The translations under genes were made by a program, and so were the position numbers. 28,709 bases of DNA from a virus: positions 1-28,709 of the IMG/VR virus record IMGVR_UViG_3300042484_002769; one strand, written 5' to 3'. Below, piece after piece: positions 24,968 through 28,709 of this stretch. The notes under the pieces are model-generated. The model worked only from the letters and a program-made list of their open reading frames with translations. It was not told the origin of the DNA and did no database searches. Numbering within the stretch: the stretch's first letter is position 1; every line of letters begins with the position of its first letter.

Positions 24968-25300
24968 TTAAACTGGGAAGTGACCGTATCCGTATGACTT
25001 AGCTTTAGGGAACAACACACCAATTATTTCAGCTGTGTCTTTACTAATTTCGATGATTTCAAAATTCTTTAAGAAGTTGCTAAAAGAATCATAGTCAATG
25101 TATTCATTAGTACCAAAGCAAACTTCAAAGTATTTATTAGTACCAGAGCAAACTTCAAAGTATTGATCGTCTTCTTCAATTTCTAGCTCGCTTTTAAATT
25201 CACTCAACGCTTTATTCCAAGCATCAAGATTGTCAAAAATCTTAAACCCGCTGACATCCATTTCGTCAGCCAAATTATCTTCAAATTTTACTAGTATCAT
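24968..25300 (-). CDS. 110-aa acidic protein with an internal tandem repeat
   Basis: It reads MILVKFEDNLADEMDVSGFK and contains two copies of a ten-residue unit (YFEVCSGTNK, YFEVCFGTNE) from a 30-bp duplication. Otherwise acidic alpha/beta sequence. It is a middle gene of the operon between 25705 and 24425. Function unknown. Confidence 0.7.
   Translation of the reverse strand: MILVKFEDNLADEMDVSGFKIFDNLDAWNKALSEFKSELEIEEDDQYFEVCSGTNKYFEVCFGTNEYIDYDSFSNFLKNFEIIEISKDTAEIIGVLFPKAKSYGYGHFPV
25101..25160. repeat. 30-bp tandem duplication inside a gene
   Basis: Two adjacent 30-bp units (25101-25130, 25131-25160) match at 28 of 30 positions. The frame is kept, adding ten residues. Confidence 0.85.
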
Positions 25301-25339
25301 ATTCTTTTCTAAAAAGTAATCGCGCTTATAATTGTTCGC

Positions 25340-25492
25340 TCAATCTTCTTCATCATCTTCGTTGAACTCTTTAAGAGCTTCACTATACCAATCCCAATTG
25401 TCAACGCCAGCGTTTTGTAGACATTGTAGTAGTCTTGAATCTTCAAGAAGATCGTTATATTCCTTTTTTGTAATTGTTACTGTTTCTTCCAT
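25340..25492 (-). CDS. 50-aa conserved phage protein
   Basis: It reads MEETVTITKKEYNDLLEDSR, then LLQCLQNAGVDNWDWYSEAL, with an acidic tail. ITKxEYxxLLExxxxLxxLxxAGVDNWxxY is a pattern I recall from many phages (a small helical protein of unknown role). It lies between the 63-aa and 110-aa genes of the operon. Confidence 0.75.
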   Translation of the reverse strand: MEETVTITKKEYNDLLEDSRLLQCLQNAGVDNWDWYSEALKEFNEDDEED

Positions 25493-25513
25493 ATTCTAAT
25501 TGTTTAGAAGTTC

Positions 25514-25705
25514 TTAGCTACAAAAGTTTTTTAGACTATTGTCTAGATCTGTATGGAGTAAACTATCTCCATTAGAAGATTCTGTAATGGTCCACCCAAA
25601 ATGAGAAATTGGAGTACCTAACTTTTCAAGCTGGTTGATAATATCCTCTCCCAAAGGATCTCCTGTGGGTGGAATGTCTTTGATATTTCCTAAATTATAA
25701 TTCAT
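25514..25705 (-). CDS. 63-aa shortened paralogue of the 24425 gene
   Basis: It reads MNYNLGNIKDIPPTGDPLGE, then GWTITESSNGDSLLHTDLDN. It aligns with the first two thirds of the 88-aa protein and then ends early, suggesting tandem duplication and truncation. It starts 9 nt after the stop of the NAMPT remnant. Function unknown. Confidence 0.6.
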   Translation of the reverse strand: MNYNLGNIKDIPPTGDPLGEDIINQLEKLGTPISHFGWTITESSNGDSLLHTDLDNSLKNFCS

Positions 25706-25714
25706 ATTGATCTA

Positions 25715-25813
25715 TTAGAAGTTCTTAGCAACATTAGCACGAACCTCTGCCAATGTCCAGTCCTTCTTGATAAATCCGTTACAGAAGACTTGAACAAAAG
25801 CACAGTTCTTAAC
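25715..25813 (-). pseudogene. Displaced remnant of a NAMPT C-terminus
   Basis: The minus strand reads VKNCAFVQVFCNGFIKKDWT then LAEVRANVAKNF and TAA: 32 codons with no start codon. It aligns end to end, without gaps, with the last 32 residues of the intact NAMPT (from V500), with 19 identities including VKNCA and KNF. Immediately upstream is the endonuclease's late promoter and an in-frame stop. It uses AAG and AAC like the body of nadV, not AAA/AAT like the present nadV tail. Confidence 0.85.
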
Positions 25814-25821
25814 ATATTAAC

Positions 25822-25827
25822 TAAATA
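25822..25827 (+). promoter_or_regulatory. Late-type promoter (TAAATA) for the homing endonuclease
   Basis: ACTAAATA lies 5 nt before the ATG at 25833 and 9 bp beyond the NAMPT remnant. Confidence 0.55.
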
Positions 25828-25832
25828 TAGTT

Positions 25833-26660
25833 ATGACAACATATTATACTGTTTATAAAATAACTAATTTAATTAATAATAAAGTTTACGTAGGAGTTCA
25901 TAAAACTGACAATCTGAACGATGGGTATATGGGGAGCGGGAAGATCATAAAATCATCAGTTGAAAAACATGGAATAGAAAATTTTAAAAAAGAAATTATT
26001 CACATATTTGATAATTCTGAAGAAGCATACGATATGGAATCTAAAATTGTCACTGAAGAGTTTATTTCAAGAGATGACACATACAATATACGGATCGGTG
26101 GGATAGGAGGATGGGATCATATAATCCCCGGTAAATATCAACTTTCAAAAGAAACTAGATCGCGTATTGGTAATAAGCTCAGGGGCAGAACATTCACATC
26201 CGAATCTAAAGATAAAATGTCAATATCTAGAAAACTATATATTGCAAGTGGTGTAGAACTACCGAAAGGTATGTTAGGAAAGGAGCATTCAGAAGAGACA
26301 AAAGAAAAAATAGCGAAAACTAAAGAAGGGAAACGAAATCCAAATTTCGGAAAAATTTGGATTACAGATGGCATCAAAAATAAACATATTCTCAAAAGTG
26401 AGGTGATTCCAGATGGATGGAATCGAGGAATGACGGTGAGTGATGAGACTAAACGAAAACAATCTGAATCAGCAAAAACTCGCGCAATTAGAGAAAAAAA
26501 TACCAACACTAGACACAATAACAATGCTAAAAAAGGAAAGTCACATGTCAATTTCGGAAAATTTTGGATAACGGATGGATGCAGTAATATTATGATTTTT
26601 AAGACTGAATGTATCCCTGCTGGGTGGAAGAAAGGGATGACTGTAGTTAAAACTGCTTAA
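25833..26660 (+). CDS. GIY-YIG homing endonuclease with NUMOD3-type motifs
   Basis: This 275-residue protein begins TTYYTVYKITNLINNKVYVG, a GIY-YIG core (VYK...YVG), followed by GYMGSGKIIKSSVEKHGIEN and the acidic SEEAYDMES helix. Three DNA-binding NUMOD3-like segments (SKETRSRIGNKLRG, SEETKEKIAKTKEGKRNPNF, SDETKRKQSESAKTRA) and two copies of a WITDG-x5-12-IPxGWxxGM unit follow. It is the only plus-strand gene after 7447 and is A-rich. It lies between intact nadV and the NAMPT remnant, so it probably invaded nadV. Confidence 0.9.
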   Translation: MTTYYTVYKITNLINNKVYVGVHKTDNLNDGYMGSGKIIKSSVEKHGIENFKKEIIHIFDNSEEAYDMESKIVTEEFISRDDTYNIRIGGIGGWDHIIPGKYQLSKETRSRIGNKLRGRTFTSESKDKMSISRKLYIASGVELPKGMLGKEHSEETKEKIAKTKEGKRNPNFGKIWITDGIKNKHILKSEVIPDGWNRGMTVSDETKRKQSESAKTRAIREKNTNTRHNNNAKKGKSHVNFGKFWITDGCSNIMIFKTECIPAGWKKGMTVVKTA

Positions 26661-26672
26661 CTACAGTCATCC
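26635..26672. terminator. Bidirectional terminator-like inverted repeat
   Basis: Perfect 16-bp arms GGATGACTGTAGTTAA and TTAACTACAGTCATCC flank a 6-nt loop. They cover the end of the endonuclease gene and lie 10 bp from the nadV stop, so the hairpin could end both convergent transcripts. Confidence 0.65.
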
Positions 26673-26681
26673 TATCTATTA

Positions 26682-28277
26682 TCAGAAATTTTTAGATACA
26701 ATGTTCCTAATTTCCGATAGTGTGTATTCCTTCATAATTTTACCGTTCTTGAAAACACATTTCAGTGCGCAATTTTTCACCTCATCCCAAGTGGCTTGAT
26801 CCTTGAGAATAAACTCACCATCTTGTTCATAGACAGCAGTTAGACCCTTGGCACTCTTCTTCATACCGCTATCAGTCTTAGGATCTTTGAAGATCTCAAC
26901 ACCAACACGCTGTCCATCCTTTAGAACTTCTCCATAGGTACTCTTAACAGCAAACATGTGAGTGTCCCGTGTGACAATGGCATCTCGGGTTACAGCACCT
27001 TGATAAGTGAAGCTACCAATACCGAAGACAACATTGGTGGAAGCAAACCCCTTATCAGCAAGACGCTGACAGATTTGTTCAGCACGCTCTAGTGTGATAC
27101 TATCCCCATAGATTGCTCCAATGTGACTATCAAGAAGCTTGTATCCAGTAGTGCTTTCGGTTCCTCCGAAGATTTCCCAAAGACATTGAACCATACCCTT
27201 GACTTCAAGTTCGGTTAGTTCATCACCCTTATATTGACATTGGGCTATATACTTGTCACCGATAGTCAACTTAATATAAATCTTACCATCCTTACGAATG
27301 ATTTCATCTTCAGTATAGCCTGTAACAATCTTAACTGGATCACCACTGTCAGGACGAATAACAACCTTACCATCACGGGCAAGAATCTTATCCTTGAGAG
27401 TAGCAACAATACCACCATCAGGATCAACAACATTCCAGAAGTCCCAAGTATCAGATACGATACTGACAATACCAGATGGATAAACATCTTCAATGAGACG
27501 ACGGAAGGTTTCAACTTCATCTTCCATACCACCGAGACACATAACGCTGTGTTCTGTAGCTGCCACGCTGCCACCAATCAATTCCTTCTCACAATCAGCA
27601 TTGTAATATTCTTCAAGGAAGTCAATTGCTGGTAGAGTATCAGTTCCAGTGAATGCTAGAAGGTGAGCAGCACCACTCATACAAGCAGCTTCAAACCCAA
27701 AGTGACCACGGAAAGAGAAATCATGCCCCTGCCACGGAACAAACCCAATAGCTTCAGGAGAAGTTTCCTTAGCCCACTTTTCAAAGATCTTACGATACAT
27801 AACAGCAGTGGTAGCACTGGTACACGGACCCCAGATAGTAGTGGATAGAATGGTTTCAATGGCATTGGTTAGCCAGAAGAAACGAGCATCAGTGTTCCAG
27901 ACAACAAAGGTAGGCACACGAAGATTAACATTAGAACCTTCAGGCAAAGCCCAAATCTCCAGAGGAAGATATCCAAGAGCGTGTAGATCACGGATGTGTT
28001 GATCTCCAACATTATTCACTCCAAGATAACCAAGGAGACGACGACCATAACGAGCAGTGACAGTATCGAGAGGTAGATTGAAGAAAGTACGATTCCATTC
28101 TTCAATGAGATACTTCTTCATAAAGTATTGAAGACCAAAGGTAATCACCTTATCCAAACCATTAACCCGTGTGCCACGGGGTGTAAGATTGGAGAAGACG
28201 AGAGCTGTATTTGAGGGATATTGCATAATATGCCCAACTTTATAACCGTCCACGAGTAGAGGTGCTAATGTATTCAT
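26682..28277 (-). CDS. nadV: Nicotinamide phosphoribosyltransferase (NAMPT)
   Basis: This 531-residue enzyme joins nicotinamide and PRPP to make NMN, the rate-limiting step of NAD+ salvage. Family residues are visible: the N-terminal DGYKVGHIMQYP, D186 in GHDFSFRG, H243 in AATEHSVM (phosphorylated His in NAMPT), and R308/D310 in VIRPDSGDP. Length fits phage and bacterial NadV. It has a middle promoter with a 10-nt gap. Phage NAMPTs are known to rebuild NAD+, including against NAD-depleting defences. The last 32 residues have A-rich codons unlike the body, see the remnant at 25715. No NMN adenylyltransferase is seen in this window. Confidence 0.95.
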   Translation of the reverse strand: MNTLAPLLVDGYKVGHIMQYPSNTALVFSNLTPRGTRVNGLDKVITFGLQYFMKKYLIEEWNRTFFNLPLDTVTARYGRRLLGYLGVNNVGDQHIRDLHALGYLPLEIWALPEGSNVNLRVPTFVVWNTDARFFWLTNAIETILSTTIWGPCTSATTAVMYRKIFEKWAKETSPEAIGFVPWQGHDFSFRGHFGFEAACMSGAAHLLAFTGTDTLPAIDFLEEYYNADCEKELIGGSVAATEHSVMCLGGMEDEVETFRRLIEDVYPSGIVSIVSDTWDFWNVVDPDGGIVATLKDKILARDGKVVIRPDSGDPVKIVTGYTEDEIIRKDGKIYIKLTIGDKYIAQCQYKGDELTELEVKGMVQCLWEIFGGTESTTGYKLLDSHIGAIYGDSITLERAEQICQRLADKGFASTNVVFGIGSFTYQGAVTRDAIVTRDTHMFAVKSTYGEVLKDGQRVGVEIFKDPKTDSGMKKSAKGLTAVYEQDGEFILKDQATWDEVKNCALKCVFKNGKIMKEYTLSEIRNIVSKNF

Positions 28278-28287
28278 ATGTGTGTTT

Positions 28288-28308
28288 ATTGTATTCTAAC
28301 GTTTTATT
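28288..28308 (-). promoter_or_regulatory. Middle promoter of nadV (box + TACAAT)
   Basis: AATAAAACGTTAG, AA, TACAAT; the ATG at 28277 is 10 nt after the hexamer. Nearly identical to the promoter at 28656. Confidence 0.7.
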
Positions 28309-28325
28309 AATTTTATCAGTGTTCC

Positions 28326-28649
28326 TTACTTAGCGATCTTCAACTTGCTTACATCGACGCCAAACTTGGCAGCAATCTCATCCATAGTCAAGATGATTTC
28401 CTTAGCAGTTTTAAGAAGGAATTCTCGTTCAGTGAGCTTTTCATCATTGAGATACCAAAATTTAGTGCCATCCGCTCCTTCATAAGCTGGACCATCTTCA
28501 CGATGACGCTTTCCATTAATTCTCCATTCTTTATAACCATCAACCCATTCAATAGCGGGTCCATCTTCACGATGAAGAATAGTCATGGCTTTGTCATTGT
28601 AGTAAAACTTGCTTCCGTATGAGTTGATTTCGATGTATTGTGGGGTCAT
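28326..28649 (-). CDS. HREDGPA-repeat phage protein
   Basis: This 107-residue protein has two HREDGPA units (TILHREDGPAIEWVDGYKEW, GKRHREDGPAYEGADGTKFW), followed by a helical C-terminus (LTEREFLLKTAKEIILTMDE). Such MORN-like YYND...HREDGPA repeats recur in large phages, often in several copies; function unknown. The start is exactly 6 nt after TACAAT. The next gene to the right ends with the same KIAK-stop. Confidence 0.8.
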   Translation of the reverse strand: MTPQYIEINSYGSKFYYNDKAMTILHREDGPAIEWVDGYKEWRINGKRHREDGPAYEGADGTKFWYLNDEKLTEREFLLKTAKEIILTMDEIAAKFGVDVSKLKIAK

Positions 28650-28655
28650 GTGTTT

Positions 28656-28676
28656 ATTGTATTCTAACGTTTTATT
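28656..28676 (-). promoter_or_regulatory. Middle promoter (box + TACAAT)
   Basis: AATAAAACGTTAG, AA, TACAAT; the ATG at 28649 is exactly 6 nt after the hexamer. Confidence 0.75.
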
Positions 28677-28693
28677 AATTTTAAGAGAGTTCC

Positions 28694-28709
28694 TTACTTA
28701 GCGATCTTG
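28694..28709 (-). CDS. 3' end of a further gene, probably a paralogue of the HREDGPA gene
   Basis: Only the codons KIAK and stop are visible. They and the following GGAAC match the end of the 28326 gene, suggesting a tandem paralogue continuing beyond the window. Confidence 0.5.

Follow-up and report, generated by a model that had tools for sequence, protein, structure and literature searches.

How a homing endonuclease gene can lie within the coding end of a phage gene and leave that gene whole, and which of the two gene ends that then flank the endonuclease is the original one, are the questions raised by a locus of IMG/VR record IMGVR_UViG_3300042484_002769 (positions 1-28,709), a stretch of virus DNA of 28,709 bases that is referred to below as the window. 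The gene is nadV (NAMPT), which occupies 26682-28277 on the minus strand as one 531-codon frame. Its predicted product of 531 amino acids matched NCBIfam PRK09198 at 526 bits (cut-off 405) and PHROG 448 at an E-value of 7e-186, covering positions 17-496 of 500, and holds the NAMPT/NAPRT domains at full length; a structure prediction of NadV gave a predicted local distance difference test score (pLDDT) of 49.9 and was set aside. A sequence-only reading of the window had claimed an intact nadV, an opposite-strand GIY-YIG gene and a startless second nadV C-terminus, and all three are present: the nadV body (codons 1-499, 26781-28277, minus strand) with its present 3' end (codons 500-531 and the stop, 26682-26780, minus strand), the endonuclease gene (25833-26660, plus strand) and the remnant (25715-25813, minus strand). 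As judged by sequence comparison, the stranded remnant is the native 3' end of nadV, and the present tail together with the endonuclease, about 967 nucleotides (nt), is a foreign insert, because an uninvaded relative matches the body and the remnant but not the present tail.

Native and foreign 3' ends of nadV

Relatives of nadV were collected from IMG/VR as 40 close-relative loci and the best 80 of 587 from a profile search. These 120 loci yielded 97 distinct 3' ends, and 93 had at least 1000 nt of downstream sequence. A GIY-YIG gene followed by a clear second tail was found behind nadV in only one of the 97, locus L003 (IMG/VR 3300034068_001472). Weak second matches to the gene's own tail at ten nadV loci (E 0.002-0.043) were judged to be chance.

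The relative which allows the two ends to be told apart, L014, is close to the window and has a nadV that is uninterrupted near codon 500, another endonuclease being located elsewhere in the gene; the sequence behind its nadV covered 586 nt. Over codons 368-499 the window and L014 are identical at 378 of 396 nt, and in the last 100 codons before the tail at 287 of 300. The present tail shares 58/99 nt with the L014 tail, with third positions 30% identical, whereas the remnant shares 87/99 (88%). Body and tail differ in their identity to L014 with a Fisher p of 4e-19, the maximum-likelihood switch point between the window and L014 lies at codon 501-502 (2 delta lnL, twice the difference in log-likelihood, 84.7), and the match of the remnant to L014 restarts in codons 500-501. 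The comparison of relatives with and without the endonuclease, which had been proposed from the sequence alone, therefore has a definite outcome: the uninvaded tail of L014 resembles the remnant and not the present tail.

A drop from body to tail as large as that between the window and L014 was absent from the other pairs compared. The counts for the 100 codons before the tail and for the tail itself were 283/300 and 91/99 in L009/L011, 268/300 and 84/99 in L012/L029, and 251/300 (84%) and 72/99 (73%) in L007/L008. The tails of L008/L010 agreed at 99/99 nt and those of L004/L005 at 88/99, the ungapped body counts of these pairs being spoilt by insertions.

The remnant consists of 32 codons and a stop and has no start codon; upstream of it there is one open codon and then an in-frame stop, with the same count in the contig of L003. 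When the record of the window was searched with the NadV protein, the gene itself and the remnant were returned, the latter at an E-value of 2.3e-5. The present tail and the remnant are identical at 19 of 32 residues, exactly as had been claimed, and at 56/99 nt (57%), and 20 of their 33 codons agree in meaning with 5 agreeing in letters. Among the Lys codons (AAG:AAA) the body has 26:2, the remnant 4:0, the tail 2:4 and the endonuclease 6:32; body and tail differ with a Fisher p of 0.004, and this part of the earlier codon-bias argument stands, the tail being like the endonuclease and the remnant like the body.

The same arrangement with the same junctions occurs in L003, where the endonuclease is identical to that of the window at residues 1-273 of 275, the tail at 99/99 nt and the remnant at 97/99 nt. 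Within the 967-nt insert, comprising the tail, a hairpin, the endonuclease and the gaps, the two differ by 1 substitution and by a 6-nt hairpin loop that is inverted, compared with 96 differences over 5719 nt of flanking sequence in hand-chosen blocks (Fisher p 7e-6 against the insert, loop left out). The low divergence of the insert is a weak hint of recent spread. An open reading frame (ORF) of 63 amino acids beside the remnant is nearly identical in the window and L003 too.

The nearest tails among the collected loci were those of L006 (23/32 amino acids) and of L008/L010 (65/96 nt), and for this reason the present tail probably came from a nadV within the same broad clade. In a tree of the tail (96 columns) the present tail joined L008/L010 with support 81/91, and in the tree of the adjoining body the window, L003 and L014 were grouped at 88/83 support; approximately unbiased (AU) tests on the 96 tail columns rejected none of four groupings (p 0.21-0.36). 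The path lengths to L014 were 1.95 for the tail of the window, 0.05 for the body and 0.17 for the remnant, and the path from the remnant to L014 was its shortest after that to the remnant of L003. The conflict between trees which had been predicted is seen in these distances and not in the topology.

The endonuclease and other insertions in nadV

The endonuclease gene, convergent with nadV, codes for 275 amino acids. Its product matched PHROG 314 'homing endonuclease' at an E-value of 2.8e-52 and Pfam NUMOD3 at 43.3 bits (cut-off 20.4), and it reached 21.3 bits against Pfam GIY-YIG, just below the cut-off of 22.6. T4 SegB is among its relatives with 35.6% identity, the nearest other relatives show at most 48% identity over most of the length, and 21 columns are invariant over 18 endonuclease sequences, that of the window included. 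The predicted enzyme is a Seg-like GIY-YIG homing endonuclease with a NUMOD-type DNA-binding motif, in which the conserved residues are kept. No intron family was detected in 25200-28300 of the window up to an E-value of 1. A group I intron or an intein was rejected because no intron RNA was detected there and the endonuclease is antisense to nadV; the NCBIfam model for group I intron endonucleases gave 46.8 bits, below its cut-off of 56.05. A split gene of the nrdA/mobE type was likewise ruled out at nadV, since the host gene is a single 531-codon frame.

Between the two convergent genes, an inverted repeat at 26635-26672 would form a hairpin that spans the stop of the endonuclease and stands beside the end of nadV, as indicated by its self-complementarity, by the fold of 26625-26690 (z -6.7 and -6.9) and by the loop inversion. 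In L003 the inversion of the 6-nt loop alters the last residues of the endonuclease. A gap of 19 nt (25814-25832) separates the endonuclease start from the remnant, and sequence comparison places the right edge of the insert there.

The gene nadV is invaded at several sites, and among the inserts seen only that at codon 500 leaves a single full-length frame. In L014 (6001-8429) and L029 (6001-8424) an antisense endonuclease VII-like gene, whose product in L014 matched PHROG 1035 at an E-value of 1e-14, splits nadV at codon 249-254, and each of the two parts keeps its own frame. In L030 (7424-7672) nadV is split near codon 430 by an ORF of 83 amino acids on the same strand, of the T5orf172/MUG113 kind. 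In L205 (8378-8659) only nadV codons 440-531 were found, directly after ORFs of 673 and 331 amino acids, which by their appearance we take to be rIIA and rIIB. At the codon-249 site, L039 and L040 have a run of G (about 6740) in which the reading frame of nadV shifts; the shift may be a real change or a sequencing error.

Exchange within the gene is also apparent. Upstream of codon 368 the window and L014 are more divergent, and nadV is therefore mosaic there as well. Between the window and L003, 27250-27749 contains 68 differences in 500 positions, compared with 7 in the preceding 500 and 1 in the following 250, the divergence climbing again from 28000; this stretch, around the codon-249 insertion site of L014, is likely to be an exchange tract. 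A variable stretch at about codons 324-355 is the same or nearly so in the otherwise different genes of L027, L007 and L009, which points to the exchange of short segments within nadV.

The 63-amino-acid ORF (25514-25705, minus strand), of unknown family, is situated between the remnant and a third, short nadV end; it had no match in phage records and is common to the window and L003. The third nadV end is an 18-nt copy at 25504-25521 (minus strand), found by self-match of the sequence with 17 of 18 positions identical, the best match in 200 base-shuffled windows being 15, and it may be the trace of an earlier insertion by which the gene end was likewise replaced. The sequence upstream of nadV (28281-28709) is a member of a repeat family of which L003 and L014 carry several copies.

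Proposed mechanism of insertion and its rivals

The reading that we consider probable is that a free-standing GIY-YIG endonuclease gene was inserted at nadV codon 500-502 as a mobile block together with a substitute tail. The block of about 967 nt is made up of a diverged copy of the last 32 nadV codons, the hairpin and the endonuclease gene in the opposite direction. The endonuclease, presumably active, would cut the native nadV 3' end in phages without the element, and repair of the break from a donor would copy the block in. The new tail being in frame with the resident body, NadV is full length and the gene is kept whole; the tail itself would probably escape cutting because its DNA differs. 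The last 32 codons of the resident are found beyond the endonuclease, with no start codon. On this reading the tail would move as a component of the mobile unit and would not be the product of a single import along with the endonuclease. The comparisons given above, together with the similar stranded ends beside other phage genes described below, lend support to the inference of the sequence-only reading that the element had brought both the endonuclease and a replacement C-terminus and so kept nadV whole.

Several observations weigh against this reading. The donor was not found: in IMG/VR the DNA pattern of the tail matched only the contig of L003, and among phage records, 377 of which were returned at E-values up to 10, the best of the 40 listed had an E-value of 0.004. 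The best tail tree does not unite the remnant with L014 in a clade (with that clade lnL falls by 5.67, p 0.21), and trees of 96 nt do not place the donor. In some pairs, L007/L008 among them, divergence is somewhat faster in the tail than in the body. If the loop is counted, the insert has 7 differences between the window and L003, and another 967-nt tract of the same two has 3. Only a single acquisition at nadV is seen, the window and L003 being close kin. The Asn codons (AAT:AAC) contradict the earlier codon argument, with counts of 14:1 for the body, 1:3 for the remnant and 2:2 for the tail. Finally, the G+C content at third codon positions of the tail (0.39) is not distinct, since 89% of 33-codon windows of the body are at or below 0.39.

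The chief rival, which we regard as rather unlikely, is a one-off import. The endonuclease gene would have been intergenic, behind the nadV of a diverged donor, and would have entered with a left join by homology inside nadV and an illegitimate right join, the tail being a passenger. Free-standing T4 endonucleases, as PMC2988022 describes them, are intergenic and have distant cutting sites, and the seg genes co-convert their flanks, which would suit such an event, as would the single acquisition seen at nadV. The terminase family that came up in the screen described below argues in the same direction: the body and tail of endonuclease-bearing genes go together and, of 17 terminase loci inspected by motif, 15 had no remnant, so that a longer terminase stretch may have been exchanged. 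A random right join, however, would probably have led to the loss or duplication of some sequence, whereas the remnant restarts at the very codons that open the new tail, in keeping with insertion at a single point.

It is far less probable that a local duplication of the nadV 3' end came first, that the copy joined to the body diverged fast and that the endonuclease entered between the copies. The short nadV-end repeat at 25504-25521 shows that such copies occur nearby, but divergence of this kind would have to account for third positions only 30% identical to the L014 tail directly beside 132 codons with 378/396 nt identical, and for tail Lys codons that match those of the endonuclease. An assembly chimera of two phage genomes can be dismissed almost completely, for although each of the three sequences involved (window, L003 and L014) is an assembled virus contig, identical junctions are found in the window and in L003, which are distinct contigs with scattered substitutions on both sides.

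Stranded gene ends beyond nadV

Insertion of an endonuclease with a substitute tail may have parallels in other genes, and endonuclease loci were screened for a second copy of the adjacent gene's end, lacking a start codon, on the far side of the endonuclease. The set comprised 168 loci, relatives of the window and L014 enzymes with some contigs present twice, of which 156 had at least 150 nt on both sides. The loose screen gave 11/336 in its control, and an earlier, cruder screen 13 of 222 mispaired controls. The strict criteria, fixed only after the loose list had been seen, yielded 6 loci from 5 contigs, and an in-frame variant added 1 locus, with 0 of 667 mispaired controls for either.

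The strict nadV case (L043) is the contig of L003. A tail-sheath case, L108/L210 (PHROG 23 at an E-value of 5e-71), has a convergent GIY-YIG gene and a second copy that is identical at 47/48 nt and is therefore not diverged. In the terminase large subunit (PHROG 2) cases, L229 and L226/L227, endonuclease and host gene share a strand; L226/L227 are probably one virus and pass solely at the E-value limit of 0.001. With the stop counted, the copies in L229 have the same meaning at 12 of 15 codons and the same letters at 3; for L226 the counts are 11 and 5. The L226 remnant resembles the terminase end of cyanophage KBS-S-2A, and no endonuclease is annotated behind that gene. In L294 the endonuclease gene ends in frame inside the copy, on the same strand as the host ORF (85 amino acids, with no match in phage records), and 19 of 22 codons of the copies agree in meaning and 3 in letters.

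A further 76 loci returned only contigs already counted, with one hit among 227 controls, between two terminase loci. Among 12 loci of named phage isolates none was found by the strict criteria, and five loose matches were found in three. The endonuclease-endonuclease tandems L223, L272 and L282 were dropped from the screen, as were L107, in which the gene's own start is repeated, and L060, L061, L065, L083, L085, L088, L096, L106, L212 and L279, where the copy had a wrong position or was no gene end. The enzymes of L014 and L294 are endonuclease VII by PHROGs, and those of L014, L229 and L294 had no Pfam HNH match; the enzymes of L014, L029, L226, L229 and L294 are taken for HNH, a label of our own. 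The stranded-end pattern may extend beyond nadV as a wider class, also with another type of endonuclease.

The closest known systems are the mobile endonuclease ORFs (mORFs) of fungal mitochondria, which PMC3630166 records first from Allomyces atp6 and then from Glomus atp6, atp9, cox2 and nad3. In both settings an endonuclease is found in a host gene, a foreign C-terminus is joined in frame and the native C-terminus is stranded beyond it. The proportions are comparable, the native tail of Glomus atp6 being 91.2% identical to that of a relative and the two tails 63.5% identical to each other, against 88% (87/99) and 57% (56/99) for nadV, and the Glomus atp9 mORF also has a GIY-YIG enzyme. The present case differs in its phage genome, in a host gene of nicotinamide adenine dinucleotide (NAD) salvage and in the hairpin between host gene and endonuclease. 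In the published Glomus hybrids the endonuclease is on the strand of the host gene, as in L229 and L294, whereas the nadV case has opposite strands (plus for the endonuclease, minus for nadV).

Among phage systems, the endonuclease gene resembles the free-standing Seg/Mob endonucleases of T4 in being intron-less, and its product matches PHROG 314 and is 35.6% identical to SegB, but those endonucleases are described as intergenic in PMC2988022, whereas a nadV 3' end is present on either side of the endonuclease. With Aeh1 nrdA/mobE and T4 topoisomerase/mobA, treated in the same source, it has in common a location inside a coding region; those host genes consist of two working parts, whereas nadV is restored at codon 500, although split nadV genes also exist in L014, L029 and L030. 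The engineered home-and-rescue drive HomeR (PMC7968924) likewise occupies the 3' coding end of its target gene and restores that gene by means of a re-coded 3' end that it carries; unlike the nadV insert it is man-made, Cas9-based and works in a fly, and the analogy is one of logic only. A phage precedent was not found in the open-access literature searched by title or abstract start, a report elsewhere being possible, and the accessible portions of PMC10448857, PMC6715854 and PMC5587285 hold no description of such a phage arrangement.

The nadV mosaic is real and well supported, and its architecture is that known from fungal mORFs, here in phage form and with signs of a wider class. It is quite possible, if short of probable, that phages host recurrent natural home-and-rescue elements, in which GIY-YIG and endonuclease VII-like enzymes enter the 3' coding ends of NAD salvage, tail sheath and terminase genes and bring a substitute end, in several cases encoding a similar protein in other codons, that keeps the gene working and hidden from the nuclease, the resident end being left as a genome-readable signature of each invasion. 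The stranded end records the native sequence, and invasions can therefore be traced computationally and the point of cleavage predicted within a few codons, so that the mechanism can be tested directly in vitro. If true, this would explain how a selfish endonuclease enters coding sequence with no intron, intein or split gene and with no loss to the host gene, and the ends of phage genes would be one more refuge for such elements and a means by which lineages exchange gene ends.

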